Notes: a model not told the origin generated them from the letters alone. A DNA stretch of 30,518 nucleotides from a bacterium (GCA_040755755.1 JBFLZW010000045.1:1-30518), one strand, 5' to 3'; shown: positions 3,979 to 30,518, counted from the first letter of the stretch. Numbers and translations: made by a program.

Positions 3979-4039
3979 GTGCTATAAACTCCTTCTCAAT
4001 AGAGCGCCATAGTTATTGTCTTACCAGGAAGCTGAGAAA

Positions 4040-4105
4040 ATGTCAACCTGCCTGCCTCTCTCTTCTCCACACACTGACCACTGACCACTCCCCCCCACTC
4101 CTCCT
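4040..4105. repeat. Low-complexity intergenic repeat (CACTGACCACTGACCAC type)
   Basis: Between the antitoxin gene and the ATP-grasp gene is a pyrimidine-rich block with two direct copies of ACTGACC followed by CACTCCCCCCCACTCCTCCTC. On the minus strand it reads as purine-rich GTGGTCAGTG repeats. It is of the same general kind as the purine-rich insertions found inside the PseC and GH57 genes of this window. Confidence 0.5.
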
Positions 4106-7022: not shown

Positions 7023-7023
7023 T

Positions 7024-10984: not shown

Positions 10985-10999
10985 GACTCACCTCTTTGG

Positions 11000-12607: not shown

Positions 12608-12643
12608 GGTTTATTCCTCATCGAGTTTTCATTATCGCATCGG

Positions 12644-13627: not shown

Positions 13628-14702
13628 ATATGCTATGCTCCCTGAGTCTGTCGGCTATTCTGCGGGCAATCCTCTCTGCTCCCCGGCCATCGATGAGGCG
13701 GCTGGTCATTGGAGGGCCGGAGGCTCCCCTGGTTAAAAATTCCCTGACCGCATCAGCCAGAGCCTGCTGACTCATCTGGCTGAATACACCCAGGCTCTTT
13801 CCAAATCCGGCTGCAACCAGGCTTGAGGCCGATTCAGCATGGTCCCCGGTCAGGCAAAGATAAATGGCCGGAACCCCCAGGGCAGCCAGCTCATAGGCCG
13901 TGATTCCGAATGAGATAATAGCCATGTCTGCCTGAGACATCAGGCCGGGCAGGTCATCTCCTGGTGATTGTACGGTAAAGCTGCGCCGTGCTCCGGCAAG
14001 CAGGATTTCCAGTGTCTCCCTCTGCTGAAATGCCGGTCCCGGCACCAGCACGGCTTCAAAATCCTCAGCTAACGTATCGAGCGCACGAGCGGCAAGCAGA
14101 GTCAGCCCGGCAGGGTCGCTTCCTCCCATAGTCACCAGCACCAGCGGCTTGCTATGGAATGGCCGGGATGGCGACAGCGGAGGATGAGCAAATTCGGGCC
14201 GCAGCACCACCCATTCCCAGCCTGCCTGAAGCTGGCCGGTAAAGCCGCGCCAGTCAAGACGCTGTACCTGGGGTACGGGCGGATAGAAGGCCAGATCTGC
14301 GGCCAGCCTGCGCTCGCCGGGATCGTCCAGGACCGCGATCAGGATTCCCTGCCTGCGCCAGATATCCACCACCTGCCGGGGCAGATCATCCCGTACATCC
14401 AGGATCAAGGCCCCGGCATCAACCGTGTCAATCGCTTCCTCAATCCACCTGCGATAATCAAACGGCTGCTGCTGATCAGGCTGCGGGGGAAGAAGCTGCT
14501 GCTTATCCGGCTGGGGGGTAAGGACCGGATACCCTTTCCTCCGGACCATCTCAAAGGTCGGTGGGCTATGGCGCATGGCAAAGGCAACGGAAAGCTGATG
14601 CACCCGGCAGAGCTCATCAGCCAGGGCCAGACAGCGGACCACATGCCCAAGGCCGATTTCCGGCGAGCCATCACAGCGAATCAGAACGGCCTTCCCGCTC
14701 AT
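13620..14702 (-). CDS. pseG: UDP-2,4-diacetamido-2,4,6-trideoxyhexose hydrolase, PseG-like
   Basis: A 360-residue protein with a GT-B-like fold. The N-terminus has the PseG signature IRCDGSPEIGLGHVVRCLALADEL, including the catalytic His20 in GLGH. Further along are LVTMGGSDPAGLTLLAARAL and the UDP-binding part MSQADMAIISFGITAYELAALGVPAIYL. PseG removes UDP from the 2,4-diacylamino sugar made by PseB, PseC and PseH, giving the substrate for PseI. Residues 63-80 hold a short duplication (PQPDKQQLLP then PQPDQQQPF) not expected in the family. RBS AAGGGG precedes the ATG. Confidence 0.9.
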   Translation of the reverse strand: MSGKAVLIRCDGSPEIGLGHVVRCLALADELCRVHQLSVAFAMRHSPPTFEMVRRKGYPVLTPQPDKQQLLPPQPDQQQPFDYRRWIEEAIDTVDAGALILDVRDDLPRQVVDIWRRQGILIAVLDDPGERRLAADLAFYPPVPQVQRLDWRGFTGQLQAGWEWVVLRPEFAHPPLSPSRPFHSKPLVLVTMGGSDPAGLTLLAARALDTLAEDFEAVLVPGPAFQQRETLEILLAGARRSFTVQSPGDDLPGLMSQADMAIISFGITAYELAALGVPAIYLCLTGDHAESASSLVAAGFGKSLGVFSQMSQQALADAVREFLTRGASGPPMTSRLIDGRGAERIARRIADRLREHSIYA

Positions 14703-14744
14703 CTCAACGCCCCCCTTTGCAGCTTCCTTTTCAACCTCTCGGTT

Positions 14745-16091
14745 TCAGCTCACCAGCCGCTTGAAGCCGGAGTGACTGATCGGCCCTTTCAGCATCTTCT
14801 GCACGTTTCTCTGGTCAATGGCCTTATAAATAATGGCAAAGGCCTCACGGCAGGCGACTGTATAGGCGTCGATATGCTCCTGCTTATGAGCATAGCTTGC
14901 CTTGAACTGGCACCAGGCCAGGTAGCCTCTCTCCAGCATGAGCTGAGTGAACAGGGTCCGAAGGGCCAGCGGGTCGTTCCCTTCGACCCCTTTGATCTCG
15001 AAATGGCCCAGTGTAGGAAGGCCGCTGACCCGGATCGGGAGGCCGGTTTCGTCAGACAGATTCCACCACAGGCTCTGCACCTGGCCGCCGATATGAATGA
15101 TATGCTTATCGACCTGCAGGTTGCGATACTTGCGAATAGTGGCCAGAGCCGCTGCCGGACCGATGCGTTCGGTCCAGTTCGTGCTGCTGATGAAGCTTCT
15201 CTGAGCTGCCTCCATGACATCTCTTCGCCCCAGGACAGCAGCCATCGGATACCCGTTGCTCATGGACTTGGCGAAAACGGCCACATCCGGCTCGACTCCG
15301 TACCGCAGATGAATGCCTCCACAGCCCATGCGAAATCCTGAAGTGATTTCATCGAAGATCAGAACAGCCCCGGCCCGCCGTGCCTGGGCCTGCACGCTTT
15401 TCAAAAAATCCACCGGAGCTTCATGACCGCGGGCAGGTTCCATGATAATGGCCGCCAGGCTCTGGCCATGTCCAGCCATCAGCCGGTCAAAGTCCTCCTG
15501 GTCCCCATAGGTGAAGCTCAGGGCAGAGCCTTTCAGCGCCCTTGGCACCCCTGCCGGTTCAAGTCCGGGCAGCAGTTGCGCATCCAGGGCCGAGCCATCC
15601 CCAAGATTGGCAGCCAGATACCAGTCATGCCAGCCGTGATAGCCGCACAAGGCCACCTTGTCCCTGCCTGTGGCCGCGCGGGCAAGGCGAATGGCAATGG
15701 CTGCCGCCTCACCGCCGGAGCGGGCATAGCGCACCATCTCGGCCCAGGGGTGAAGCCCGCAGAGCAGCTCTGCCAGCTCCACCTCTTCAGGGCAGTTGAG
15801 CGTGCATTGCGTGCCGCAATCAACAGCCCGGTGAACCGCCGCATCAACATCCGGATCAGCATACCCAAGGATGCAGGCTCCAACGCCCATGATGGAAAAA
15901 TCAGTGTATCTGCGGCCATCGAGGTCCCAGACGTGCACCCCCTGAGCTCTGGAATAATAAGCCGGCCAGTTGTCAGGGAGGAACATCTCCGGCCTTTTCG
16001 ACAGCAGTTGAGTGCCGCCGGGAATAAGTTTTTTAGCCTTTTTGTAAAGCTCCTGTCCTTTGCCCATAGAGATCAAATGAGGAGTATTCAT
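14745..16091 (-). CDS. HemL-like class III aminotransferase or aminomutase
   Basis: A 448-residue PLP enzyme resembling glutamate-1-semialdehyde 2,1-aminomutase: LIPGGTQLLSKRPEMF at 22-37, DLDGRRYTDFSIMGVG, RYARSGGEAAAIAIRLARAATG, YHGWHDWYLA at 151-160, FDEITSGFR with Asp247, and the PLP lysine Lys275 in VAVFAKSMSNGYPMAAVLG. Such HemL relatives occur in polysaccharide and antibiotic clusters, where they transaminate sugars or small keto compounds. A heme role is unlikely in this context. The ATG overlaps the stop of the nucleotidyltransferase gene (ATGA). The substrate is not known. Confidence 0.88.
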   Translation of the reverse strand: MNTPHLISMGKGQELYKKAKKLIPGGTQLLSKRPEMFLPDNWPAYYSRAQGVHVWDLDGRRYTDFSIMGVGACILGYADPDVDAAVHRAVDCGTQCTLNCPEEVELAELLCGLHPWAEMVRYARSGGEAAAIAIRLARAATGRDKVALCGYHGWHDWYLAANLGDGSALDAQLLPGLEPAGVPRALKGSALSFTYGDQEDFDRLMAGHGQSLAAIIMEPARGHEAPVDFLKSVQAQARRAGAVLIFDEITSGFRMGCGGIHLRYGVEPDVAVFAKSMSNGYPMAAVLGRRDVMEAAQRSFISSTNWTERIGPAAALATIRKYRNLQVDKHIIHIGGQVQSLWWNLSDETGLPIRVSGLPTLGHFEIKGVEGNDPLALRTLFTQLMLERGYLAWCQFKASYAHKQEHIDAYTVACREAFAIIYKAIDQRNVQKMLKGPISHSGFKRLVS

Positions 16092-16564
16092 CGTTTCTTA
16101 TGCCTCTCGTGCCTCTCAATGGTTTCCTTTTCATCCCATGATGCTCTTTCCTGGTTAACATATCTTTGAGCATCCACTCCTTCCCAGACCTCTTTTCCAA
16201 CTCCTTTTATGTCATAGAAGCTGACTTTTTGGCCTCCTTCATAAATAACCTTGCCTTCTTCCAATACTTGACTGATAAGTGAAGCATGCACTTTCCGGCG
16301 CTTTTCAACTTCCTCTTGAGTATAGACAAGTATATCTTTCGGCATGGGCAATCCACGCAAACAATGGTATGCTCTCGTTGCTCTTTTTGTGGGGGACTCA
16401 TTAGATTGAGAGACAATAACCAGGATATCAAGATCGCTATCCTCATTTGGTGTCCCCCGGGCATATGAACCAAAAAGAATTATTTTTTCAGGCTTAAGTT
16501 CTTCAACCATCCGCTGGGTAATCTCACTTAACTCAGCCTGTAAATCCTCTTTCACTTTTATCAC
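16088..16564 (-). CDS. MNT-type nucleotidyltransferase with C-terminal extension
   Basis: A 158-residue protein. The first 110 residues form a minimal nucleotidyltransferase with the active-site motif GSYARGTPNEDSDLDILV (about residues 32-49). MNT proteins usually pair with a HEPN toxin and AMPylate it. No HEPN gene is adjacent. After VIYEGG the protein continues for about 48 residues (VSFYDIKGVGKEVWEGVDAQ, RYVNQERASW), resembling a separate small-protein segment fused in frame. The start is a GTG at 16564 with GGAG upstream. It overlaps the aminotransferase gene by ATGA and lies just downstream of the MITE-like element, so it may have arrived as a mobile passenger. Confidence 0.8.
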   Translation of the reverse strand: MIKVKEDLQAELSEITQRMVEELKPEKIILFGSYARGTPNEDSDLDILVIVSQSNESPTKRATRAYHCLRGLPMPKDILVYTQEEVEKRRKVHASLISQVLEEGKVIYEGGQKVSFYDIKGVGKEVWEGVDAQRYVNQERASWDEKETIERHERHKKR

Positions 16565-16617
16565 CCCCTATCTCCAGGTAAAACCTTTATCCAGTAAAAC
16601 GGACATCTCACTTAAAG

Positions 16618-16893
16618 GGAATGGCACTTACATAAGAATTAGTAATTCTCCCGCAGAGACGCTGAGACGCAGAGGATATCATTGAAAAGTAAAAGTAAAA
16701 CAAGTTCCTCCTTGTGCCTTTTTACTTTTTGCTTGCTTCCAGGCCGTTGACACATCGATATATCCCGACTTTCATCAGGACCTTGCCGGATTGGTTGTTC
16801 TCTGCGTCTCTGCGTCTCTGCGGGAGATCTTTTTTCCCTGTGTGCTTTGTGTCCTCTCTATATTATAAGCTTGGCTTATGTAAGTGCCATTCC
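16618..16893. mobile_element. MITE-like element, 276 bp, inserted inside the sugar operon
   Basis: The ends are perfect 19-bp inverted repeats, GGAATGGCACTTACATAAG at 16618-16636 and its complement at 16875-16893. They are flanked by direct copies of ACTTAAAG at 16610-16617 and 16894-16901 (8 bp, or up to 10 depending on the boundary), a clear target-site duplication. Inside is a second inverted repeat of 27 bp with one mismatch (16648-16674 with 16800-16826, GCAGAGACGC type). There is no transposase, so it is non-autonomous. It occupies the 380-bp gap between the pseF-like gene and the nucleotidyltransferase gene, where nothing else is coded. Confidence 0.85.
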
Positions 16894-16944
16894 ACTTAAA
16901 GGCATTATATCACGAAATAACCCATACTTATTATAAGGAATTCC

Positions 16945-17727
16945 CTACCCCCTCACCCAGAAAGCCTCATACCCCTCATGCCCGATAAACCGGGCATTTT
17001 TCTCCCTGAGCGCAGGATTACTTTTCAGATAGCCCAGAATGTCCTCTATCCCGAAACAGGGATTTTGGCTGTAGAGGGCGCGGTAGATGTCCCTTACCAG
17101 TTCAAGGTCTTCGAGGTTGTCAACGGTCCAGCGCATCGAGGAATAATCCTTTTCACTGGAAAGACAGCCCACCCGAAACCGCTCAGGGTGCTTCCAGATA
17201 AAAGGGGTGACATGCTCCCGCTCAAGCGGATCTCTGGCTTCCAGCCAGGCCTGCTCAAGGGCGCTGAAGCGTATCGCCTCAGCGTCGAGGCCATCGGGAA
17301 ACCTGCCCTGCCGGAACTCCTGGTTGGCCACGCCTGCGCCGGTGGCCAGTCCCAGATGATCGAAGCTCCCTGATTCAACAAACTGAATCAGCAGCCTCCT
17401 TACCAGATGCGGATCAATGAGCGGGCAATCGCCGGTTATTCGGATGACAATATCGGGATGCTCTTCTTTGGCTGCCTGGTAGAAGCGGTCAAGAACGTCG
17501 GCCTCGCTTCCCCGAAAGCAGGCGATACCGACACTCTGGCAAAAGCTGGCGATCCGGTCATCAGCTTCCCGGTCGGAGGTGGCCACCATGACCCTGGCGA
17601 TTTCCCGTATGGACCCAAGCCGCTCCACGATATACCAGAGCATGGGCCTGCCCAGGATTTCCTGAAGCACCTTGCCGGGAAGCCGGGTCGATCCCATACG
17701 GGCCTGGATGACAGCTATTGTTTTCAT
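16945..17727 (-). CDS. pseF: Nonulosonate cytidylyltransferase, PseF/SpsF family
   Basis: A 260-residue protein starting MKTIAVIQARMGSTRLPGKV, the CMP-sugar synthetase signature (RxGSTRLPGK at 10-19). It continues with MVATSDREADDRIASFC, VIRITGDCPLIDPHLV and FPDGLDAEAIRFSALEQAW. The family activates nonulosonic acids with CTP to CMP-sugars; the SpsF branch is used for pseudaminic-type acids and spore-coat sugars. GTGGAG lies 8 bases before the ATG. It follows the aldo/keto reductase by 25 bases and is the last gene before the MITE-like element. PseF is the best fit, but the exact sugar depends on the unusual enzymes around it. Confidence 0.88.
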   Translation of the reverse strand: MKTIAVIQARMGSTRLPGKVLQEILGRPMLWYIVERLGSIREIARVMVATSDREADDRIASFCQSVGIACFRGSEADVLDRFYQAAKEEHPDIVIRITGDCPLIDPHLVRRLLIQFVESGSFDHLGLATGAGVANQEFRQGRFPDGLDAEAIRFSALEQAWLEARDPLEREHVTPFIWKHPERFRVGCLSSEKDYSSMRWTVDNLEDLELVRDIYRALYSQNPCFGIEDILGYLKSNPALREKNARFIGHEGYEAFWVRG

Positions 17728-17752
17728 GGCAGGTACTCCACTTTCCCCCTGT

Positions 17753-18724
17753 TCAACCCCACAGGGACGGGTTTATCGGCTTTTGCGAGATATTCAGCTC
17801 CAGGGAGTCCCAGGCATCGAGTATTTCCTCATCCATAGTGCCAGTGGTACTCAAGGTGCCACTGCCAGCACCCAGGACAAGTGCCATATTTTCCCTGATC
17901 TGGTCTGTGCTTTCAGCTCCGATCACCAGGATCGCCTCCCCGCTCCTGTGCAGGGCATAACCAAGGGCAAACCCTTTGCGGTCAAGGCCATACTCCCGGC
18001 AGAATGCCTCAAGCTGGAGCATGGCTGGCCTGGCAAAGGAGAGATGTTCAGGCAGGTCTTCCAGTGGCATCAGGATCAGACCCTGGAGAAAAACGCTGCG
18101 CAGGAACATCTGTTTTTTAAGCTGCCGTGCCTGCTCAAGAGCACCGGAAAAAATCAGCCGGCGATCAAAGATGTTGAAAGGGGCCTGAATCAGATCAATT
18201 TCATCAATAGCCAGAGCGTCCCGGGTCTCTTTCGGTGTATACACCGAAACCCCTAAAAAGGCCGTCAGGTGCTGCTCTTTCAGCTCCGCAAGGCTTGCCC
18301 CCAGCCCTGTGCTCCATTCGGCCAGCCAGGAGGCCCGATGGAGCATCAAGCCATACAGCGAATCGACACCCAGCCTTTTCAGGGAAGTCAGGACACTTTC
18401 CCGCAGGCAGGATGGGTCATGATAATTCAGCTCAGGGTGTAATTTGGAGATGACTTTTACCTGGCCGCTCACTCCCAGGGATTGAAAGCACCTGCCAAGG
18501 ACCGCTTCACTCTCTCCATAGCTCTGAGCCGTATCAAAGATCCTCACCCCAAAGTCAAAGGCTGTCCGGATGATCTCACAGGCATCTTCCGGCGATGGCT
18601 GCCCCCGGCGATTGGCCACTCCGTAGGGCATACCAAGCTGGACGGTTCCAAGGGCCAGCCGGGAGAATACTTCCGCATGCCCATTATTTTCTGGCCTGTC
18701 TATCAGATCTGCCCGCTCTTCCAT
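17753..18724 (-). CDS. Aldo/keto reductase of the nonulosonate locus
   Basis: A 323-residue TIM-barrel oxidoreductase. The catalytic tetrad is visible: Asp64 and Tyr69 in RIFDTAQSYGESEAVLG, Lys94 in VKVISKLHP, and His129 in YGLMLHRASW. The N-terminal LALGTVQLGMPYGVANRRGQ is typical of the aldo/keto reductases found between pseF and pseI in pseudaminic acid loci. It uses NADPH to reduce a carbonyl on a sugar intermediate or side chain; its exact role in such loci is not established to my knowledge. It starts 4 bases after the synthase stop codon, so it is co-translated. Confidence 0.88.
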   Translation of the reverse strand: MEERADLIDRPENNGHAEVFSRLALGTVQLGMPYGVANRRGQPSPEDACEIIRTAFDFGVRIFDTAQSYGESEAVLGRCFQSLGVSGQVKVISKLHPELNYHDPSCLRESVLTSLKRLGVDSLYGLMLHRASWLAEWSTGLGASLAELKEQHLTAFLGVSVYTPKETRDALAIDEIDLIQAPFNIFDRRLIFSGALEQARQLKKQMFLRSVFLQGLILMPLEDLPEHLSFARPAMLQLEAFCREYGLDRKGFALGYALHRSGEAILVIGAESTDQIRENMALVLGAGSGTLSTTGTMDEEILDAWDSLELNISQKPINPSLWG

Positions 18725-18728
18725 ATAC

Positions 18729-19649
18729 TCACCCGCGTCTTCCTTCCTGCCCGCAGCTCACCCATTCCTGCCGCAGGCCCTTGAGCGGCCGCAGCCCATC
18801 AGCAGGGTCTCTTCGCCAGTCGCGGTCCGGCAGTTCACTCCGGGCCGGTTCTTTCAATCCTGTGCCATCTGCCCGAAAACCATCTTTCACCTGGTCGATT
18901 ACCGCCTTGATCTGCTCCGGCAGCCAGCAATGCCCAAGGGTAAACTCCTCGCCGGTGCCGTCAAGGTCAAGATGAAATTCGATCACCTCTGCCTGCCACC
19001 GATGAATGGCCCGCTCGATCACGCCCGGTCTGACACTGTGATCGGACCAGCCGACCCTGATCCTCATCAGGCCGGTCAGTTCCGACGACTTCCCGCTTCC
19101 AAATTCCCTGCGCAGCGTGTCGATGGCCGCCAGATTGCAGTCCGAAACCGGCGACGGATACCCGGAAACGCAGTGGAGGATGGTCAGATCGCAGCATCCC
19201 GCCCGGTCAAGCGCCTCCACAGCCTGCCTGATCTCATCGAGTGTGGCCATGCCCGTCGAGAGCACAACCGGTTTTCCGGTCCGGGCACAGGCAGTGAGCA
19301 GGTCAGTCCATAAAAGCTCATAGGAAGCGATCTTATAAAAATCGACATAAGGGAAAAGCTCATCCACTGCCCTGAGATAAAAGGGAGTACAGGAGAACTG
19401 AATCCCTCTTTCCCTGCATCTGGCCCAAACTGCCGGAATGAAAGAAAGGGGAATCTCCCACCGCTTTCTGGCCCTGTGCCGGGAGCTTGCAGCAAGAATC
19501 TCAGGTGCAAAAAGCTCTTCGACCCTGAACAGTTGGAACTTTACTGCACTGCATCCGGTCTGAGCGGCCAGATCGACAAATTGCAGGCATCTTGCCAGAT
19601 CCTGATTGTGGTTACTTGAAACTTCAGCTACGAACTCAGGCTGCTTCAT
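18729..19649 (-). CDS. NeuB/PseI-family nonulosonate synthase lacking a SAF domain
   Basis: A 306-residue protein. The TIM-barrel NeuB domain is complete: FVAEVSSNHNQDLARCLQFVDLAAQTGCSAVKFQLF, FSCTPFYLRAVDELFPYVDFYKIASYELLW, PVVLSTGMATLDEIRQAVEAL, LTILHCVSGYPSP, VGWSDHSVRPGVIERAIHRWQAEVIEFHLDLDG. The family condenses PEP with a six-carbon amino sugar. Standard PseI/NeuB proteins (about 340-350 residues) end in a SAF domain that helps bind the substrate; this one ends shortly after ADGLRPLKGLRQEW instead. It therefore belongs to a divergent branch and may have a different substrate. It follows pseC by 9 bases; the ribosome binding site is weak. PseI is likely from context but not certain. Confidence 0.85.
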   Translation of the reverse strand: MKQPEFVAEVSSNHNQDLARCLQFVDLAAQTGCSAVKFQLFRVEELFAPEILAASSRHRARKRWEIPLSFIPAVWARCRERGIQFSCTPFYLRAVDELFPYVDFYKIASYELLWTDLLTACARTGKPVVLSTGMATLDEIRQAVEALDRAGCCDLTILHCVSGYPSPVSDCNLAAIDTLRREFGSGKSSELTGLMRIRVGWSDHSVRPGVIERAIHRWQAEVIEFHLDLDGTGEEFTLGHCWLPEQIKAVIDQVKDGFRADGTGLKEPARSELPDRDWRRDPADGLRPLKGLRQEWVSCGQEGRRG

Positions 19650-19658
19650 ACTATTTAC

Positions 19659-20900
19659 TCAGCCAGCTCCATAGAAATCTCTGATCGCTTCAACAATATA
19701 ATCGATCACTTCATCGGTCAGGCCGGGGTAGAGTGGCAGGATCAGCGACCTGCTGAAGTAATGCTCCGCCCTGGGGAAATCTCCCCGTTGATATCCGAAG
19801 CGGCGCCGGTAATAGGGCTGAAGGTGAACCGGGATATACATGGCATGGGCACCTATTCCCCGGGAACGAAGATGGATCAGCAATTTATCCCGCGCTTGTG
19901 CCTGTGCTGCATACAGATGCCAGCAGGAGCGGACCCCATCCCGCTCTTTCGGCAGGACAAGCTCCCCGATGCCGGACAGCCGCTCCTGGTAATGAGCCCA
20001 GATTTCCCGCCTTCGCGCGAGAAAAAAGGGCAGCCGCCGCAGTTGCACCAGGCCGAGGGCGCACTGGAGATCGGTTATCCGGTAATTGAAACCAAGCTCC
20101 TGCATTTCATAATACCAGGGGGGGAAAGAGCAGGGAACGGGAGAAGAGACGGAAGCAGTACCTCGATTCGAACGGGGAGCGGTGAGCGTTGAGCCGTGAA
20201 CAGGAAAAGCGCAGTCCAGATTCTGAAATTCCGAAGGATCTTTGGTGATTCCATGGTTACGAAGAAGACGTAAGGTGCGGGCAATTTTCGGATCGTGAGT
20301 GAGAATCATCCCCCCCTCGCCTGTAGTAATTGTCTTGACCGGGTGAAAGCTGAAAATGGTCATATGAGAATGAGAGCAGGAGCCTACCGTGTGCCATTCA
20401 CCTTTTTTATCGCGCCAGCGGGAGCCCAGGGCATGAGCGGCATCTTCGATGACCGTCAGATTCCATGCATCGGCTATCTCCCGGATGCGCTCCATATCGC
20501 AGGGCTGTCCGGCAAAATGGACCGGAATAATCACCCTGGTTCTGGAATTCAGCTTTATCTTGAGCTCATCCGGATCGAGGCAGCAGGTATCGGCCTGAAT
20601 ATCGGCAAACTTGGGTGTTGCGCCGCAGTAGATCAGGCAATTGGCCGAAGCCAGAAAGGTGTTGGGGGAGGTGATCCCCTCGTCACCGGGCCGTATCCCG
20701 CTGGCCAGGGCTGCAAGGTGCAGGGCAGCCGTGCCATTGGCCACGGCAATGGCGTACCGTGCCCCGCAGATTTCAGCCACAGCCTCCTCAAACTCCTCGA
20801 CCTGCGGCCCCTGGGTCAGATAATCCCCTTTCAGGGTCCTGACTACAGCCGCAATTTCCTCTTCATCGAGCCATTGCCGGCCGTAAGGAATCGTATCCAT
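19659..20900 (-). CDS. pseC: UDP-4-amino-4,6-dideoxy-N-acetyl-altrosamine transaminase, PseC-like
   Basis: A 413-residue DegT/DnrJ/EryC1-type aminotransferase. It begins with the PseC-typical MDTIPYGRQWLDEEEI, then LTQGPQVEEFE, VANGTAALHLA at 53-63, IEDAAHALGS at 151-160 and the PLP lysine Lys189 in FSFHPVKTITTGEGG. It ends GLTDEVIDYIVEAI. PseC aminates the 4-keto product of PseB. Between DPSEFQNLD and PWYYEMQELGFNYRITD about 30 residues (229-260) of Ser/Pro/Arg-rich sequence are present where the family has a much shorter loop, coded by a purine-rich repeat at 20121-20216 that stays in frame. The gene overlaps pseB by 38 bases. Confidence 0.9.
   Translation of the reverse strand: MDTIPYGRQWLDEEEIAAVVRTLKGDYLTQGPQVEEFEEAVAEICGARYAIAVANGTAALHLAALASGIRPGDEGITSPNTFLASANCLIYCGATPKFADIQADTCCLDPDELKIKLNSRTRVIIPVHFAGQPCDMERIREIADAWNLTVIEDAAHALGSRWRDKKGEWHTVGSCSHSHMTIFSFHPVKTITTGEGGMILTHDPKIARTLRLLRNHGITKDPSEFQNLDCAFPVHGSTLTAPRSNRGTASVSSPVPCSFPPWYYEMQELGFNYRITDLQCALGLVQLRRLPFFLARRREIWAHYQERLSGIGELVLPKERDGVRSCWHLYAAQAQARDKLLIHLRSRGIGAHAMYIPVHLQPYYRRRFGYQRGDFPRAEHYFSRSLILPLYPGLTDEVIDYIVEAIRDFYGAG
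20121..20216. repeat. Repeat-like insertion inside pseC
   Basis: On the plus strand this stretch is GGGGAAAGAGCAGGGAACGG followed later by GGTGAGCGTTGAGCCGTGAA. It looks like the short GGTGAACGG/GGTGAGCG repeats usually found between genes. Its length keeps the pseC frame open, adding about 30 residues to a loop between the PLP lysine domain and the conserved PWYYEM segment. Confidence 0.5.
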
Positions 20901-21906
20901 GCTGCTGGTACTCCGAATGCTCTTCTATGAATTGTCTCACATATTCCTGAAGCTGCTCACCGGTCAGCCAGTCGGTATTGGTATCGCTCCGGTAGCTGAA
21001 TCCCGGCGGACAGGGCTGCCCTTCCCGGTTTCCATTTCCATGATGGCCGCTCCAGCCGATCACGAAGTATTTGTCATACTCTCGGGTAATACGGCTGTCA
21101 TTTTCATCGATCATGATCTCATGCAGCTTTTCTCCCGGACGGATGCCGATGGAGCGGAAGGTGCACTCAGGGGCGATGGTCCTGGCCAGATCGACCAGCC
21201 TCATACTGGGGATCTTGGGCACGAACACCTCGTTCCCCTGCATTCTTTCAAGGCAGTCCAGAACAAAGTCCACTCCCTGCTGCAGGGTGATCCAGAAGCG
21301 GGTCATCCGCTCATCGGTAATGGACAAAATCCCGCTCTTTCGCTGCCTGAGAAAAACAGGGATGACCGATCCCCGGCTGCCGATCACGTTCCCATAGCGT
21401 ACCACGGCAAATTTGATGTCCTGAGAGCCCGCGTAGGATTTTGCAGCCGTGAATATCTTATCCGAGCAGAGCTTGGTGGCCCCATAGAGATTGATAGGAT
21501 TACAGGCCTTGTCCGTACTCAGGGCGATTACCTTTTTGACTCCCGCATTGATAGCTGCGGTAACGACATTCATGGCCCCGATGACATTGGTCTTGATCGC
21601 CTCCATAGGGTTATATTCACACGAGGGGACCTGCTTGAGAGCTGCGGCGTGAATAACGATCTCAACCTCTCTGAAAGCGTGCAGAAGCCTTTGCTGGTCC
21701 CGGACATCACCGACCAGATACCGCATCGGCGACCTGTGCTCCTGGGTGTCGTCCGGAAACCTCTGCCGCATTTCATACTGCTTGAGCTCATCACGGCTGA
21801 AGATGATCAGCTTTCTGGGCCGGTAGCGATCGAGAACCGTCCTGCAAAGCTGCTGTCCAAAGGACCCGGTACCGCCGGTAATCAGGATTACTTTGCCGTT
21901 CAGCAT
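20863..21906 (-). CDS. pseB: UDP-N-acetylglucosamine 4,6-dehydratase (inverting), PseB
   Basis: A 347-residue SDR-type sugar nucleotide dehydratase from the chosen ATG. Near the start is MLNGKVILITGGTGSFGQQL, with YLVGDVRDQQRL, HAAALKQVPSCEYNPMEAIKTNVIGA, ALSTDKACNPINLYGATKLCSDK (catalytic DKA and YGATK) and RYGNVIGSRGSVIPVF further on. These mark PseB/FlaA1. It makes UDP-4-keto-6-deoxy-L-AlNAc, the first step of pseudaminic acid synthesis. I chose ATG 21906 (AGAGGAG upstream) over an in-frame GTG at 21945 because it matches the family N-terminus. It heads the long minus-strand operon. Confidence 0.94.
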   Translation of the reverse strand: MLNGKVILITGGTGSFGQQLCRTVLDRYRPRKLIIFSRDELKQYEMRQRFPDDTQEHRSPMRYLVGDVRDQQRLLHAFREVEIVIHAAALKQVPSCEYNPMEAIKTNVIGAMNVVTAAINAGVKKVIALSTDKACNPINLYGATKLCSDKIFTAAKSYAGSQDIKFAVVRYGNVIGSRGSVIPVFLRQRKSGILSITDERMTRFWITLQQGVDFVLDCLERMQGNEVFVPKIPSMRLVDLARTIAPECTFRSIGIRPGEKLHEIMIDENDSRITREYDKYFVIGWSGHHGNGNREGQPCPPGFSYRSDTNTDWLTGEQLQEYVRQFIEEHSEYQQHGYDSLRPAMAR

Positions 21907-22434
21907 TTTTCCCGCTCCTCTTATGAGTTGCTCATACAATAACACCTGGAGGCACAGAGATAAGCCTGGACAAAAGCGAAGGATCAGTCGGCAGACTCAG
22001 GGCTCGCTGAAGAACCAGATGGAAACTGAAAGTGAGAAGGTACTGGAGTATGGAGATGGTTTTTCCTATTCCTTGGCCATCGTTACCGAATATTACAAGC
22101 AACTTCTGTGCCACTGAAAAACTGCCGGCAATAAAATTATGGAACTGCTTGTTCTTAAAAAGATTAGACTGTGACATCCTTTGCGCGGCCGATTGGGAAG
22201 GCAGGTTGTTTACGCAAAAAAAGCTCCTATTTTGTGCATATTTCTCACCTGATCTCTCCCCTTGCTAACCCCCTGCCTGAATAAAGTGCACCCTGATCCA
22301 ATCTCATGGGTTTGCCAGTTGCAGGTTGTCGGGCAATGTGATAGATTTAGCCCAAACTGCCGAACACCTTTGTAAAAGCCTGATGCACAAGAAAGGTCCC
22401 GGTGAATTATACCGGCTGAGGAAGGGGGGGAGAC
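21907..22434. other. Divergent intergenic region between pseB and the M20 peptidase gene
   Basis: This 528-bp stretch must hold the promoters of the leftward sugar operon and of the rightward peptidase genes. I see no promoter close to consensus. Short reading frames occur on both strands (for example 21932-22177 minus, 81 codons) but lack good ribosome binding sites. Nothing else is recognisable. Confidence 0.5.
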
Positions 22435-23817
22435 ATGCAGGAGATCAATATCAACCGGTTGCATAATTTTGTCGCGGGCTCCCGAAAACGATTCGAGCAC
22501 TACCTCGGCACCATGGTGGAGATTCCGACGGTGAGCACGGACCCGGCCCGTCAGGGGGATATCCTGAAAGGGGCTGCGCTGGCTGTCGATTATCTGACCG
22601 AGATGGGGGCCAGAGCGGAAATCGTCAAGACCGGCGGTCACCCCATGATCTTAGGCCACTTCGATGCTTATCCTGATGCACCTACGCTTGCCATTTATCA
22701 TCATCTCGATGTTCAGCCCGCCACACCTTCCTCAGAGTGGCTCCATCCGCCATTCAAGTTTACCACTACTCTGGATGGGCACTACCTTGGCCGGGGCACG
22801 ACCGATGACAAGGGGCCTGCCCTGACTGCGCTGTTTGCAGCCGGCTTTGCCCGTGAGGAGGGTATCCCGCTCAACATCAAATTCATCTGGGAGATGGAGG
22901 AGGAGATCGGCAGCCCGCATTTTGCAGCCGCCATCAGTTCCCGGAAGGAGGATATTCACCCGGATTCGATCCTGGTGCAGGACGATGCCTGGATTTCCCG
23001 GCAAAAACCGGCTATCACCTATGGGATCCGGGGACTGATGACCGCTCTTATGACCCTGGGCACGGCTGAGCGGGATACCCATTCGGGGCTGGTGGGTGGA
23101 GCAGCCAGAAATCCGGTGGCTGAGCTTTGTCAGGTCATCAGCCAATGCCTCGATCCTCTGACGGGAAGGGTCAAAATCGACGGGTTCTACGACAGGGTGC
23201 GAAAGCCATCCCCGGAAGAGCTTAAGGAATTTGAAAGCGTTGATTTCAAGGTTTCCGACTTCCAGAAAGCCCACGGTCTCAGGCTGCTTCGTACCCGGGA
23301 TGCCAGCCTGATCCTGCAGGCCACCTGGTGCGAGCCTACCTTTGAGGTTCACGGCCTGGTGGGCGGATATCCGAGCAGCGAGGTTGCAGCCATCGTCCCC
23401 CGCAGCGCCGAGGCCAAGATCAGCACCCGGCTGGTGCCGGACCAGGTGCCCAGGGAGATATTTCAATTGCTCAAAGATCATGTGGCCAGGATCAACCCCG
23501 ATGTGGCGGTCGAACTGGACAGCATCCTGGAACCCTTTCTGACTGAATTTGCCGGCCCCCATGCCCAGGCAGCCAGAGAGGCGATAAACTTCGGATTTGG
23601 TCTGAAGCCTGTTTTTATCCGCGAAGGATTGTCGATCGGCAGTGTGGCCAGCATGCAAAATCTCTGGCGGGTGCCCATTGTGCTGCTTGGCCTCAGTCTG
23701 CCCGAACATGGCTATCATGCCCCGAACGAGTATTTCGACTGGGCTCAGGCATCGGGAGGAATCAGGACCCTGGCCTACTATTTCCACCGGATCAGCCGGA
23801 TTGGGCGGGGGGAGTGA
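22435..23817 (+). CDS. M20 family metallo-dipeptidase, copy 1
   Basis: A 460-residue M20-type peptidase with no signal peptide. Zinc-site residues are visible: His90 and Asp92 in YHHLDVQPA, the bridging Asp in GRGTTDDKGPALTALF (124 or 125), and the Glu pair in IWEMEEEIGSPHF (155-157). A dimerisation-domain His is seen in DTHSGLVGGAARNP, and the last metal His in LSLPEHGYHAPNEYFDW. M20 members of this shape (CNDP/DapE-like) cleave di- and oligopeptides at a free N-terminus. GGAAGGGGGG precedes the ATG. The next gene is a close copy. Confidence 0.92.
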   Translation: MQEININRLHNFVAGSRKRFEHYLGTMVEIPTVSTDPARQGDILKGAALAVDYLTEMGARAEIVKTGGHPMILGHFDAYPDAPTLAIYHHLDVQPATPSSEWLHPPFKFTTTLDGHYLGRGTTDDKGPALTALFAAGFAREEGIPLNIKFIWEMEEEIGSPHFAAAISSRKEDIHPDSILVQDDAWISRQKPAITYGIRGLMTALMTLGTAERDTHSGLVGGAARNPVAELCQVISQCLDPLTGRVKIDGFYDRVRKPSPEELKEFESVDFKVSDFQKAHGLRLLRTRDASLILQATWCEPTFEVHGLVGGYPSSEVAAIVPRSAEAKISTRLVPDQVPREIFQLLKDHVARINPDVAVELDSILEPFLTEFAGPHAQAAREAINFGFGLKPVFIREGLSIGSVASMQNLWRVPIVLLGLSLPEHGYHAPNEYFDWAQASGGIRTLAYYFHRISRIGRGE

Positions 23818-23959
23818 TTATAGCGGTTCTCAATTGCGTATCCTCCAAAAAGACAAAGGCAAAGGACACCACAGAGGCACAGAGGCACTGAGGTACACAG
23901 AGGGATATGGGTGGCATAGAGAGTACAGAAGGCATAGAGAAAAGCAAAGGAGAATAAGT
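23818..23959. repeat. Repeat-like spacer between the two M20 genes
   Basis: The spacer begins with TTATAGCGGTTCTCAATTG and then has a run of short imperfect direct repeats (CACAGAGGCACAGAGGCACT, then variants with CATAGAG). The first part recalls the inverted-repeat end at 761-784 (TTATAGCGGATTATTG), and the CAGAGG runs recall the interior of the MITE-like element. It ends in AAAGGAG, the ribosome binding site of the second gene. Confidence 0.45.
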
Positions 23960-25336
<1,377 letters not shown>

Positions 25337-25844: not shown

Positions 25845-26300
25845 CCTTGTGATCTGGCATGCCTTACCTCATGCAAGAGCCTCCTTTCCTCCTGACTTTC
25901 ATTCTTCCAATTCCGGGAAATAATCGTTCAGGCATTACTCAAGGTCACTTGCCGCTCAATGTCACGTATTGGGTCACGTATTGCTGGGGACTTAATAACG
26001 CGTGGATATTGTTCAGGTTTTCGTGATCTGCTTCTTCTTTGTTCAATTCTTATGCCATATGGTTTCTCCTCGGTAACTGCCTGATATGCTTGATATACTT
26101 GGCATTGCGAGATCATCGGGTCCAAGTGTGGAGGGGGCGGGTGGAAAAAACTATGGGCAATGAAATAGGGATGCGGCACAGCCTCACAATATCAATTAAT
26201 TGCAAATACGAAAAAATATGGAGTCAATACATACACTATATGGACTTCACATCATGATTTCAGGATTCCTCTTTGCATGGCGAAATATTCTCCAGTCGGG
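25845..26300. other. Intergenic region without supported genes
   Basis: There is no reading frame with a convincing start and family match. A short direct repeat (GTCACGTATTG twice, about 25961-25985) is present. A minus-strand frame at 25928-26179 has a C-terminal KPYGIRIEQRRSRSR stretch that could be a gene remnant, but it cannot be assigned. Confidence 0.4.
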
Positions 26301-26319
26301 AAGAATTGCCCAAATAAAT

Positions 26320-27152
26320 AAGAGTCCCATAAAAAGGATGGATATATACATAGCAATTATGGCAGGCAGCAGAAAACCGGCTATAAGCCTGCTGATGCCT
26401 TCACAATCAGTCTTTATTTCCATTTGTTTTCCGCTACTTCTATGTATTTTCCCCCTCTCCATGAATTATTATCCAACCGGCGAAAGCTATTGTGGACACA
26501 AGTTTTTTATCCAAAAACAGAAACTTACCCTTATAGCACTGCCTCGGTCAAACCTTGATCAGGATGTGGTACGGGACTTGCCTTATTTGAAAGTAATGAA
26601 TTTATGAAAACTGTGGTAATGCTTCTCATCTGGTAATAATTAAATAGGAGGAGATATATTTAATCACCTGATCGCCTATGCCATAGCATATTATATAAAG
26701 GCATCATAAGCTGCATAAGCTGCTCCTCTTGCATAAGCTGCCGCTCTCAATTATCGCCATGCTCAGGGCTGTTTTTTCATGTTCCCGCTTCTCTCTGTAG
26801 TCAATAGTTACCCGCTTTGTTGAAGGATCAAGTGCTGCTCATTCCGGCTGCACAGAGAAATGGAAGAGAGATAGCCTGTTCAATAATCAAAGCGGTGAGG
26901 CCTGGAATGCCCATGAGGATAAAAATAAATTATGAAAGGAGGTGAAAGACTGGCAGCTCAGAGTAAATCCAGGGAACATGAGCGTTCGGTCAAAGCGGTT
27001 ATTCGATCGAAGCAGTTATAGGAAAGGGGTGAATAGAGAAGGAATTCAGAACACAGCGTGTAAAGTGATGAGTGTCAGATATTATGATAAACCCGTAATG
27101 CATTGATTGTATTAAGTATCTGCAGGTTAGCAAAAAGAAAGGGGTTTCAAAA
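26320..27152 (+). promoter_or_regulatory. Long non-coding leader of secreted protein gene A
   Basis: This region of about 830 bp has no supported long gene, yet it is collinear with the leader of unit B. It holds three direct copies of CATAAGCTGC (26705-26714, 26714-26723, 26732-26741) and a short reading frame at 26932-27021. An AAGGGG sits just before the gene's ATG. It may be a promoter region plus long 5' untranslated RNA; the transcription start is not visible. Confidence 0.5.
26932..27021 (+). CDS. Short upstream reading frame in leader A (MKGGER start)
   Basis: A 29-codon frame starts MKGGERLAAQSK and ends in TAG. Unit B has a frame at the same place starting MRGGER that stops after 13 codons. 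The shared GGTGAAAG sequence could equally be a ribosome binding site or an RNA element. Expression is unproven, and only the first six residues are conserved. Confidence 0.25.
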   Translation: MKGGERLAAQSKSREHERSVKAVIRSKQL

Positions 27153-27866
27153 ATGTTTGCCAACAGAAAACTTGCGCATGTCTTCTTCATCATGGTCAGT
27201 CTACTGGCTTTATCCTTAGCTTGTTCACCGGCTTTGCAGGCTCAAAACTGGGCCGCTATGCCCCCTTACAATACTTTGTGGCCATTGTGGTCACCTGCTT
27301 TATCACCTGTTGACCCGGTAACCGGATTACCCACACCGATAGTAACTGAATTAACCCATAATACTATATTGCCTGTCGAGCCTGGATTAACCTGGTATAC
27401 GGAACTCAGCTATCCATGGCTTCTGTATAACACTCCCGCCGGAATGGCTTACTATGATCCGATTGACGGCGTTAACTTATGGCCACCCGCATTTTTCATG
27501 TCTCTCCCTTTACCACTGACTCTTCCCCCGGACTATGCGAATCTGCCGCCTACGGATCCAGCCTGGTTAACCGCCACACTGCCGGTGGCTAATTCGGCTA
27601 TCCTTGGTTTCTTACCTGCATTTGGAGGGGCACCGATAGTATCACCCACATTCTTACCTCTCAGCGCTCTTCTTCCTCCTCTTCCTCCTCCTCTTCCTAT
27701 TCCTACAGTCGTTATCCCTACTGTTGTTGCACCGACAGTCATTGCACCTCTGCCCGTTCCTACTATCGTTGCACCGACACTCGTTGCACCGACAGTCATT
27801 GCACCTCTGCCCGTTCCTACTGTTGTTGCTCCGACAATCCTTGCTCCTACCGCAGTTATTATTTAA
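27153..27866 (+). CDS. Secreted Pro/Val/Thr/Ala-rich repeat protein, copy A
   Basis: A 237-residue protein of no family known to me. Residues 1-31 form a signal peptide (MFANRKLAHVFFIMVSLLAL, probable cleavage after ALQA). A conserved middle part follows: QNWAAMPPYNTLWPLWSPAL, SPVDPVTGLPTPIVTELT, WLLYNTPAGMAYYDPIDGVN. From about residue 170 it is a degenerate repeat of APT and PLPVPT units with alternating Val/Ile and Thr. The N-terminal part is rich in Trp, Tyr and Pro. It is very likely exported and may sit in the cell envelope or matrix. The ATG has AAGGGG upstream and a terminator follows. The paralogue is at 28877. Confidence 0.82.
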   Translation: MFANRKLAHVFFIMVSLLALSLACSPALQAQNWAAMPPYNTLWPLWSPALSPVDPVTGLPTPIVTELTHNTILPVEPGLTWYTELSYPWLLYNTPAGMAYYDPIDGVNLWPPAFFMSLPLPLTLPPDYANLPPTDPAWLTATLPVANSAILGFLPAFGGAPIVSPTFLPLSALLPPLPPPLPIPTVVIPTVVAPTVIAPLPVPTIVAPTLVAPTVIAPLPVPTVVAPTILAPTAVII

Positions 27867-27902
27867 AGGAAATCTATTATTCTGATCCTTTGAGTATAAA
27901 AG

Positions 27903-27944
27903 ATGGGGATCTGCTCAAGAGAGAGTGGGATCCCCTCTTTTTTT
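27903..27944 (+). terminator. Rho-independent terminator of gene A
   Basis: GGGGATC (27905-27911) pairs with GATCCCC (27929-27935) and is followed by a run of T (27937-27944). It lies 37 bases after the stop codon of copy A. Confidence 0.85.
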
Positions 27945-27999
27945 CGCTGGGGAAAAACCATATTATGGTATCTATCGTATTATGAGCGATAAAGATTTC

Positions 28000-28876
28000 A
28001 TAAAAAATATGGATTTACACATATCAGCTATGGCATTCGCCAGGTAAGCCACTTTTGCCAGTAAGTGCCTTCACAGACGGCCTTATCTCCCCTTTGCTTC
28101 TCGCTATTTTTATGTATTTTTTCCCCTTATATAACTAAGTCCAGCCAGCGAAAGCTATTACGAATACATATTTTTTTACCTGAAAACAGAAGCTTGCTCT
28201 TATTAGCACCGCCTTGGTCAAGCCTTTATCAAGATGTGGTATGAGACTTGCCTTGTCTTAGGAAATAATTCGGATTCAAAGAAAATAGCAAGAGCGTTTC
28301 TCATTTGTCCATAAGGAAAGTAAAAGGAGATATATATTTTGATCACTTGATTGCCGATATCATAAGCCACTCATAAAATATCTTAAGCTGCATAAGCTGC
28401 CACTCTCAATCAACGCACTGTAGAGAGCTTTTTCCATATTCTTGCTTCTCATTGTGGCTATCAGGTTTTCTCTTTCTTCAAGGCTGAAGTGCTGCTTATT
28501 CCTAATCTGATACAGATTTGAAAAAGTATCAGTTTCTGCTGTTTCTGCTTGTCTGATTCAACAGAGTTAGTTTGAGCAGGGATATGCCTGCCTAGAGGAA
28601 TGCCAGAGAGCATATTTATAACCAAGGCAGCTAAGCTTCGAATGCCCGTCAGGATAAAACACCTTATGAGAGGGGGTGAAAGGCCGGAAAATAACAGCTT
28701 ATTATGAGGAAGTGTGAGCTTTCAACCAGAGCAGTTACAGGGGAAAGGGGTGAAGAAACAGGAGGAAACTGAGGGAATAAACTGAAAAGTGATGTGTGTG
28801 AGGTGTTGTTATTTGTCTGTAAATGTATTGATTTTTTTTTATTACCTATAGGTTAGCTAAGAGAGGTATCTTGAGA
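28000..28876 (+). promoter_or_regulatory. Long non-coding leader of secreted protein gene B
   Basis: An 877-bp non-coding region collinear with leader A. It contains TTAAGCTGC then CATAAGCTGCC (28383-28401), the AAAGGAGATATATAT block near 28323, and GTGAAAGG near 28676. About 130 bp near 28500-28630 has no counterpart of equal length in A. No supported gene is inside it. Confidence 0.5.
28666..28707 (+). CDS. Short upstream reading frame in leader B (MRGGER start)
   Basis: A 13-codon frame (MRGGERPENNSLL) at the position equivalent to the MKGGER frame of leader A. It could be a leader peptide, but its short length and unconserved end make it speculative. Confidence 0.2.
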   Translation: MRGGERPENNSLL

Positions 28877-29851
28877 ATGTTTGCCAATAAGAAATTAGCG
28901 TACTTCTTCTTTTTCATGGTCAGTTTAGTGGCTCTATCATTAGTTTATTCACCGGTTTCACAGGCTCAAAACTGGGCTGCGATGCCTCCTTATAACACTC
29001 TATGGCCACTGTGGTCTCCAGCCCTGTCACCTGTTGATCCGGTATCCGGAATACCTGTCCCAATCGTGACTGAGTTAACACCTGCTACCGTATTGCCCGT
29101 TCAGCCCGGTTTGACCTGGGATCCTGCTGCAGCAAATCCCTGGCTGCTCTACAATACTCCACTTGGCATGGCCTATTATGATCCAATCGGTGGAGTAAAC
29201 CTGTGGCCACCATCGAATTTTCTTGATGCTTCCGGCAGTCCGCTGCCTATCGGCCTCCCGCTTGACTATGCATTTTTGCCCCCGACTCCGGCCAGTTGGA
29301 TAAACACCAATGTTCCTCTGGGGAATGCATACGCCTGGCTTTATTTAATGAGCATTCCAGGATTCATACCCCCGATCGCACCAGTTATAGGACCATTAGG
29401 CTTTACGGGCGTTCCGGGCATTACGGGAATCCCGGGAGTCCCAACCGCACCTCCAGGCTTCTTCCTGCCCCCAAGTGCACTTCTTCCCGGTGTCGCTCCT
29501 CTTCCCGTTCCGACGGCTGTTGCACCTCTTCCCGTTCCGACGGCTGTTGCACCTCTTCCCGTTCCGACGGCTGTTGCACCTCTTCCCGTCACTACCGCTA
29601 TCGCTCCCCTGCCTGTTCCGACGGTTATTGCCCCAACAGCTCTGGCTCCTCTGCCCGTTCCGACGGTTGTAGCTCCTACTGCTCTTGCTCCGACAGCCCT
29701 TGCACCTCTTCCCGTCCCGACGGTTGTAGCTCCGACCGTTGTAGCTCCGACAGCCGTCATTTTGCAGCTTACCGCTCCGACCGCTGTTGTACTGCCAGCT
29801 ACCACAGTTGTACCAGCAGCTATTTCCGGCTTGCTGTTTCCCTTTATCTAA
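28877..29851 (+). CDS. Secreted Pro/Val/Thr/Ala-rich repeat protein, copy B
   Basis: A 324-residue paralogue of the protein at 27153. It has a signal peptide (MFANKKLAYFFFFMVSLVAL, cleavage probably after SQA) and the same middle part (QNWAAMPPYNTLWPLWSPAL, VTELTPATVLPVQPGLTW, WLLYNTPLGMAYYDPIGGVN). A Gly/Pro/Ile stretch near residue 180 (GFTGVPGITGIPGVPTAPPG) looks collagen-like. Then come about 110 residues of APLPVPTAV and APT repeats, and a hydrophobic tail ending ISGLLFPFI. ATG 28877 is preferred over a TTG two codons upstream because it matches copy A. No Cys is present at the signal cleavage region, so it is not a lipoprotein. Confidence 0.82.
   Translation: MFANKKLAYFFFFMVSLVALSLVYSPVSQAQNWAAMPPYNTLWPLWSPALSPVDPVSGIPVPIVTELTPATVLPVQPGLTWDPAAANPWLLYNTPLGMAYYDPIGGVNLWPPSNFLDASGSPLPIGLPLDYAFLPPTPASWINTNVPLGNAYAWLYLMSIPGFIPPIAPVIGPLGFTGVPGITGIPGVPTAPPGFFLPPSALLPGVAPLPVPTAVAPLPVPTAVAPLPVPTAVAPLPVTTAIAPLPVPTVIAPTALAPLPVPTVVAPTALAPTALAPLPVPTVVAPTVVAPTAVILQLTAPTAVVLPATTVVPAAISGLLFPFI
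29498..29605 (+). repeat. 27-bp tandem repeat in secreted protein gene B
   Basis: Three perfect copies of a 27-bp unit (29498-29524, 29525-29551, 29552-29578) encode PLPVPTAVA. A fourth, diverged copy follows (29579-29605). The perfect identity implies recent expansion or slippage. Confidence 0.9.
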
Positions 29852-29888
29852 AGGCAGAATATTGGCCTGATTTTCTGGCAATAAAAGA

Positions 29889-29929
29889 TGGAGTCCCGCT
29901 CAAAAGAGGGTGGGGCTCCATTTTTTTTT
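29889..29929 (+). terminator. Rho-independent terminator of gene B
   Basis: TGGAGTCCCGCTC (29889-29901) and GAGGGTGGGGCTCCA (29906-29920) form a long stem with G-U pairs and a small AAAA loop, followed by nine T (29921-29929). It matches the terminator of gene A in position and partly in sequence. Confidence 0.85.
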
Positions 29930-30019
29930 CGCAGAGATTGATTTTCAACGACATACCGCAGCCAGAAAAAAACAATAAACTGCCCGTATTTCTCTTACCT
30001 TCAGAATTAGCCTCACAAG

Positions 30020-30144: not shown

Positions 30145-30518
30145 ATGAGCGAAGATGATCTCAAAAAAATTGAGGAAATTTTTACCCGCCAGACAAGTAT
30201 CCTTACTGAGAGCTTTCAAAAAAAGGTGGATACTCTCACCGAGAGCCTTCAAAACAGGGTGGATACTCTCAATGACAACTTTCAAAACAGGGTGGATACT
30301 CTCGATGAGAGCCTTCAAAACAGGGTGGATACTCTCGATGAGAGCTTTCAAAAAAAGGTGGATGCTCTCAATGACAACTTTCAAAACAGGGTGGATACTC
30401 TCAATGACAACTTTCAAAACAGGGTGGATACTCTCGATGAGAGCTTTCAAAACAGGGTGGATACTCTCAATGACAACTTTCAAAACAGGGTGGATACTCT
30501 CGATGAGAGCTTTCAAAA
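30145..30518 (+). CDS. Coiled-coil protein of perfect 11-residue repeats, truncated by the window edge
   Basis: The frame opens at ATG 30145 (MSEDDLKKIEEIFTRQTSIL) and is still open at the end of the window, 124 codons later. From residue 21 it consists of 11-residue units, NDNFQNRVDTL, DESFQNRVDTL and DESFQKKVDAL, nine complete plus a partial one. Hydrophobics at F, V and L recur with hendecad spacing, which predicts a long, slightly right-handed coiled coil. No signal peptide is present in the visible part. The ribosome binding site is weak (AGAGGCAAG). The opposite strand is also open through the repeat, but the plus frame has the promoter and a natural start. The family is not recognised. 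Confidence 0.8.
   Translation, partial: MSEDDLKKIEEIFTRQTSILTESFQKKVDTLTESLQNRVDTLNDNFQNRVDTLDESLQNRVDTLDESFQKKVDALNDNFQNRVDTLNDNFQNRVDTLDESFQNRVDTLNDNFQNRVDTLDESFQ
30205..30518 (+). repeat. 33-bp tandem repeat array within the coiled-coil gene
   Basis: About nine and a half copies of a 33-bp unit differ at only a few positions, mainly AATGACAAC versus GATGAGAGC, and AACAGG versus AAAAAG. Two unit types alternate irregularly, as expected from unequal recombination. There are no unique spacers, so it is not a CRISPR array. The array continues beyond the window. Confidence 0.95.

Follow-up and report, generated by a model that had tools for sequence, protein, structure and literature searches.

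Predicted Sigma-54 Promoters and Orphan Shine–Dalgarno Sequences in the Long Leaders of a Bacterial Exported-Protein Family

Introduction

STAB-SD-type elements have been described mainly for Gram-positive genes. In the cry3A mRNA of Bacillus thuringiensis, such an element, a Shine–Dalgarno (SD)-like sequence near position −129, binds the 30S subunit without initiation and stops RNase J1; cry3A has a minor transcript start 558 nt and a major one 129 nt before the start codon (PMC4113751). Two other described systems bear on the locus studied here: sigma-54 regulons, which, according to the abstract of the relevant study, control the bacterial exterior (PMC3162934), and the polypurine 5′-end stabilizer of mycobacterial katG, a purine-rich leader element reported to be tied to mRNA stability (PMC2358910).

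We analyzed a window of 30,518 nt (the whole stretch of bacterial DNA under study, to which all coordinates refer) in which two tandem genes for predicted exported proteins lie behind long leaders. As in cry3A, a long 5′UTR contains SD-like sequences that appear not to direct initiation. Unlike in cry3A, the lineage is another one, the predicted promoters are of the sigma-54 and not of the Bacillus type, and many exported-protein genes are concerned; here, the predicted transcription starts lie ~560–610 nt upstream of the gene and the orphan sites typically 80–220 nt upstream. The locus resembles the sigma-54 regulons of the exterior in that −24/−12 promoters precede genes whose products are exported or lie at the surface, in a genome with many activators; it differs in that the protein family is uncharacterized and that long UTRs with orphan SDs are absent from the abstract of that study (PMC3162934). 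The likeness to katG is limited to a purine-rich leader element (PMC2358910); the element here lies far from the start codon and is exactly complementary to the anti-SD over ten bases.

Two Tandem Units and Their Protein Family

A first-pass annotation of this DNA had described two tandem units of 1.6 and 1.9 kb with the same order of leader, gene, and terminator, and leaders of over 800 bp lacking genes. This layout is confirmed: DNA similarity runs from 26328 and from 27999, each unit closes with a terminator hairpin, the units measure ~1.62 and ~1.93 kb, and the leaders, of 825 and 878 nt, have no conserved gene inside. Throughout, simple rules served to assign start codons and to predict signal peptides. 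The units comprise:

26328–27945, + strand: tandem unit 1 (leader, gene, terminator), delimited by DNA similarity to unit 2 and a terminator hairpin
27153–27866, + strand: gene 1, encoding an exported PPYNTLWPLWSP-family protein of 237 aa with a predicted signal peptide and proline-rich C-terminal repeats
27898–27942, + strand: predicted intrinsic terminator of unit 1, a strong hairpin (−22 kcal/mol, z −3.9)
27999–29930, + strand: tandem unit 2 (leader, gene, terminator), delimited by DNA similarity to unit 1 and a terminator hairpin
28877–29851, + strand: gene 2, a paralogue of gene 1 encoding 324 aa, with a predicted signal peptide and a PLPVPT repeat tail longer than that of gene 1
29882–29928, + strand: predicted intrinsic terminator of unit 2, a strong hairpin (−29.8 kcal/mol, z −7.5)

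The longest frame across leader 1 (26200–26607, TTG start) was rejected as coding: it is not kept between the copies because the best-conserved block has 1-nt indels both between them and in the sister species. A search for more leader copies, proposed with the first annotation, gave nothing: by DNA similarity, the whole leader occurs nowhere else in the 5.26 Mb genome, despite the ~33 members of the gene family that this genome (G000) encodes.

Family proteins share a conserved core (PPYNTLWPLWSP...GLTWDP...PWLLYNTPxGMAYYDP) followed by the proline-rich repeat tail. Four relatives (same genus, family, and order) have 13–21 matches per genome, and 35 other genomes have none. Neither Pfam nor NCBIfam has a match for these proteins, no PDB fold was significantly similar to an AlphaFold model used as query (pLDDT 82.8), no viral relatives were found, and a literature search on the family motif returned no paper carrying it; phmmer gave a weak match of a family protein to a designed protein. 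To judge from the predicted signal peptides and these searches, this is a family of uncharacterized exported proteins without known domain or fold. Five of its genes form a tight tandem cluster elsewhere in the genome (L026, G000:C69:73500–82000) and belong to a more divergent subfamily (PPYNVLWPLW).

Two further regions of the window may be mentioned. An ORF starting within 30147–30518 contains about ten 33-nt tandem repeats, encoding a coiled-coil-like 11-residue repeat, and runs off the window; positions 4000–22000 hold a sugar-nucleotide/glycosylation-type cluster (epimerase/dehydratase, aminotransferase, NeuB-like, cytidylyltransferase, and radical SAM proteins) which, by reading only, resembles a nonulosonic-acid locus.

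Leader Similarity and the Neutral Expectation

The conservation of the leaders had been taken as a sign of function. Their matching blocks are real, with 545 of 780 aligned columns identical between leaders 1 and 2 (70%) against 38–46% in shuffled controls; what does not hold is the inference from overall similarity, since four-fold silent sites in codons 1–60 of the gene pair are equally alike (16/24, or 67%; p 0.82 against the leader). Beyond codon 60 only 26 of 85 such sites are identical (31%), and the whole-gene value is 39%; an excess of leader conservation over this last figure is therefore misleading, as the sites in codons 1–60 match the leader level.

Outside the window, the leaders were compared with those of one sister species (G001), which has a single family gene in the same neighborhood, downstream of two M20 peptidase genes and a small ORF. 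Its leader is 61–62% identical to the window leaders in the promoter block and 45–50% in the UTR, the latter being near the shuffled level. When the three leaders are aligned, only short conserved islands remain, and the UTR outside them is without conservation to G001. Similarity no higher than neutral decay, the outcome that the first-pass annotation had named as refuting its proposal, is thus largely what the neighboring silent sites and the sister UTR reveal. Moreover, gene 2 resembles its G001 counterpart more than it does gene 1, whereas leaders 1 and 2 are nearer to each other than either is to the G001 leader, so that the 5′ half of the units has likely undergone conversion within this genome; pairwise leader similarity would then mostly reflect shared recent history or gene conversion.

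These three comparisons, with adjacent silent sites, with the sister UTR, and of the relationships of leaders and genes, are those expected if the leaders were unselected spacer, their similarity merely recording tandem duplication and 5′-half conversion and their only functional part being an ordinary promoter. We nevertheless consider this explanation unlikely, because it accounts neither for the motif islands retained in three diverged leaders nor for the family-wide enrichment of sigma-54 and orphan SD signals described below.

Conversion may also have affected neighboring genes. Tandem M20 peptidase genes occupy 22435–25336 in the window and L072:5625–8765 in the sister species, and silent sites of the sister pair are 75% alike between copies, compared with 50–57% between orthologues, which suggests gene conversion there. 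The leader of the sister species also contains, ~1170–1250 nt after the small ORF, an insertion with GTCATTCCCGCG...CGCAGGAATGAC ends that resembles a small mobile repeat.

Predicted Sigma-54 Promoters

One island of the three-way alignment reads TGGTAyGrGACTTGCC, which corresponds to a sigma-54 −24/−12 element; GG at −24 and GC at −12 are found with the fixed spacing at both 26567 and 28237. The promoter regions of the two units are as follows:

26328–26566, + strand: region upstream of promoter 1, the best-conserved part of the leader (promoter block 73% identical to unit 2 and 62% to the sister species)
26567–26582, + strand: predicted sigma-54 promoter of unit 1, TGGTACGGGACTTGCC (−24/−12), from a promoter scan; retained in both unit 2 and G001 (TGGTATGGGACTTGCC), with dyad enrichment in the family
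28237–28252, + strand: predicted sigma-54 promoter of unit 2, TGGTATGAGACTTGCC, from the same scan

The scan used a crude promoter model. For this reason, we also searched, with no model, for over-represented spaced triplets (dyads) in 69 regions upstream of family genes in five genomes (G000–G004). GGC-N8-TGC was present in 37 of the 69 regions (7.2 expected) and TGG-N9-TGC in 32 (10.4 expected), whereas the spacing off by one, TGG-N10-TGC, was not enriched (12 observed, 12.25 expected). The ordinary ribosome-binding site (RBS), AAGGAG, was also among the leading signals, and a weak extra motif, AGGTTA, occurs near the RBS in the last 110 nt of family upstream regions (14 observed, 3.5 expected), including both window leaders. 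The sigma-54 pattern was found 74 times in the whole genome, against 16 for a reversed control. Each of the five genomes has one rpoN, and the sigma-54 activator domain (PF00158) has 38 matches in G000. About half of the family is without a clear sigma-54 site, some of these genes lying inside gene clusters. No shared enhancer motif was found upstream of the family sigma-54 sites; region 26328–26566 may contain binding sites for an enhancer-binding protein.

Orphan Shine–Dalgarno Sequences

With transcription predicted to start ~12 nt past the −12 element, both genes would have long 5′UTRs containing several SD-like sites:

26594–27152, + strand: predicted 5′UTR of gene 1, ~559 nt, its start deduced from the −12 element
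26646–26655, + strand: promoter-proximal SD-like site of UTR 1, AGGAGGAGAT, ~50 nt past the predicted start (AAGGAGAT in unit 2, 28324–28331)
26936–26945, + strand: orphan extended SD of unit 1, AAGGAGGTGA, ~217 nt before the ATG, complementary at 10/10 positions to the 16S rRNA 3′ end
27022–27033, + strand: second SD-like site of UTR 1, of GGGGTGAA type, ~130 nt before the ATG
28264–28876, + strand: predicted 5′UTR of gene 2, ~613 nt, its start deduced from the −12 element
28670–28679, + strand: unit 2 counterpart of the orphan SD, GAGGGGGTGA (8/10), degenerate
28743–28754, + strand: second SD-like site of UTR 2, ~134 nt before the ATG

The 16S 3′ end of this genome is GGATCACCTCCTT, with an intact anti-SD, and AAGGAGGTGA is the exact ten-base complement of that end (...ATCACCTCCTT). 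This complementarity, typical of a STAB-SD, is present at 26936 and degenerate in unit 2, whose 8/10 site falls below the threshold of at least 9/10 used hereafter; the site is degenerate in the sister species too. Over the two leaders, the promoter-proximal sites fall ~50–60 nt beyond the predicted start.

In the dyad search, GAG-GTG was found in 35 of the 69 family regions (9.2 expected; 9–10 for GAG-GTG/AGG-TGA), and orphan AAGGAGGTGA elements lie ~80–300 nt before the ATG, apart from the RBS. Near-perfect orphan sites, defined by a match of at least 9/10 between −45 and −300 from the start codon, occur in 24 of 71 family regions but in only 3 of 198 other genes, taken from 400 kb of this genome (p 7e−13), and in 0 of 71 family regions on the opposite strand. 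Among 40 promoter-bearing regions, SD-like sites fall in 44 of 218 bins after the predicted transcription start and in 2 of 114 before it (p 4e−7); this confinement argues for a role in the RNA.

The signal extends beyond the family. The genome contains 56 perfect copies of AAGGAGGTGA, against 21 for the reversed control, and the 47 non-family matches inspected divide into 29 orphans, 11 RBSs, and 7 coding matches. Of the 29, two (L167) actually represent the complement of 16S genes and three serve a 36-aa ORF as its RBS, leaving a clean set of ~24. A signal-peptide gene, as called by a simple rule, follows 20 of 23 non-family orphan sites (two of which share one gene), typically 94–161 nt downstream, against 45 of 285 random genes. 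A strict pattern of orphan site, RBS, and ATG was found 16 times in G000–G004 (control, 3) and 8 times in 31 distant genomes (control, 5). One orthologue pair outside the family, L153/L188, differs very little between species in its promoter core and in the stretch of UTR surrounding two SDs, whereas the remainder of the gene diverges.

Three side observations concern these loci. The 36-aa ORFs (L142, G000:C21:14500–18500) are three near-identical copies, M[KR]IAT[NS]LKAGFRVTPWS...GLFNFFA, and a perfect AAGGAGGTGA immediately precedes each of them. The signal-peptide codons of L153/L188 are, like the UTR, nearly identical between species. Nucleotide-level conservation of these codons together with the UTR is also seen in a second G000/G001 orthologue pair, L161/L189: over both pairs, 35 of the 36 codons that specify the same amino acid within codons 1–22 are identical, compared with 122 of 211 beyond codon 60.

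Taken together, the sigma-54 promoter and the orphan element are well supported by these sequence comparisons as real signals. The proposal that the long untranslated RNA contains regulatory sites is thus upheld through motifs enriched family-wide, and not through overall conservation.

Alternatively, the orphan SDs might start the translation of short uORFs, whose leader peptides would control the gene through attenuation or coupling. At L153/L188, L157, and L161/L189, the site does fall within a short frame that has an SD of its own, where it is read as Lys-Glu-Val, and three of the four differences between the L153 and L188 frames are synonymous; two of the orphan-site frames at these five loci share KKIKKEV. 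In the family, a start codon lies 3–12 nt behind only 9 of 31 sites, not above the chance rate, every such frame has at most 17 codons, frames are not shared, and no start codon is consistently placed. An ATG also precedes the window site, yet in the sister species the frame is a different one. As a general explanation, leader peptides therefore seem improbable to us, although a leader-peptide variant may apply, given the short upstream frames in three non-family genes.

A structured regulatory RNA (riboswitch or sRNA), a version of the unrecognized RNA first suggested for these leaders, would fit a long UTR with islands of conservation but is very improbable, given that the leaders have no credible Rfam match and that their segments fold no better than shuffles (z-scores −1.0 to +1.3). 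A terminator-like hairpin midway along the UTR was discarded as weak and not conserved.

Discussion

We thus favor, as the probable reading, that the leaders combine a sigma-54-driven control region with a long 5′UTR whose orphan SDs bind the 30S subunit in a STAB-SD-like manner. In each unit, the sigma-54 promoter would be followed by a long UTR with orphan SDs for 30S docking, then by the ordinary RBS, the exported-protein gene, and the terminator. Sigma-54 RNA polymerase would bind the −24/−12 element at 26567 or, in unit 2, at 28237, and be switched on by an enhancer-binding protein on the conserved upstream DNA; transcription would then cross the 560–610 nt 5′UTR and the exported-protein gene. 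Within this UTR, the SD-like sites without usable start codon, of which AAGGAGGTGA at 26936 is the clearest, would probably base-pair with the 3′ end of 16S rRNA and keep a 30S subunit docked on the leader, which may shield the mRNA from decay, feed ribosomes to the real start site, or both. We infer the transcription start, the 30S binding, and its effect from sequence.

The parallel with cry3A is one of action. No RNase J match was found in G000–G002, and only weak partial matches in G003–G004; the classical STAB-SD blocks this 5′–3′ exonuclease, and the orphan SDs are therefore classed as working like the RNase J-dependent STAB-SD and not as members of that class. A STAB-SD would also be expected where the stable transcript begins; most sites here lie far from the predicted transcription start. 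Since RNase J was not detected, shielding from another nuclease, or ribosome standby, would be more likely.

More tentatively, and with somewhat less than even confidence, orphan ten-base anti-SD complements may mark the mRNAs of exported proteins genome-wide in this lineage, recruiting 30S subunits far ahead of the start codon and stabilizing or channeling the message without RNase J. If so, an orphan SD that recurs at exported-protein genes of a bacterium rich in sigma-54 and apparently lacking RNase J would extend the STAB-SD idea to another decay system. With ~33 copies and no known domain or fold, the protein family is itself a candidate for a major component, either secreted or at the surface. 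The locus also teaches that the similarity of paralogous leaders can mislead, function being carried by short motifs and not by overall conservation, and its orphan SD would offer a simple test case for what distant ribosome-binding sites do.
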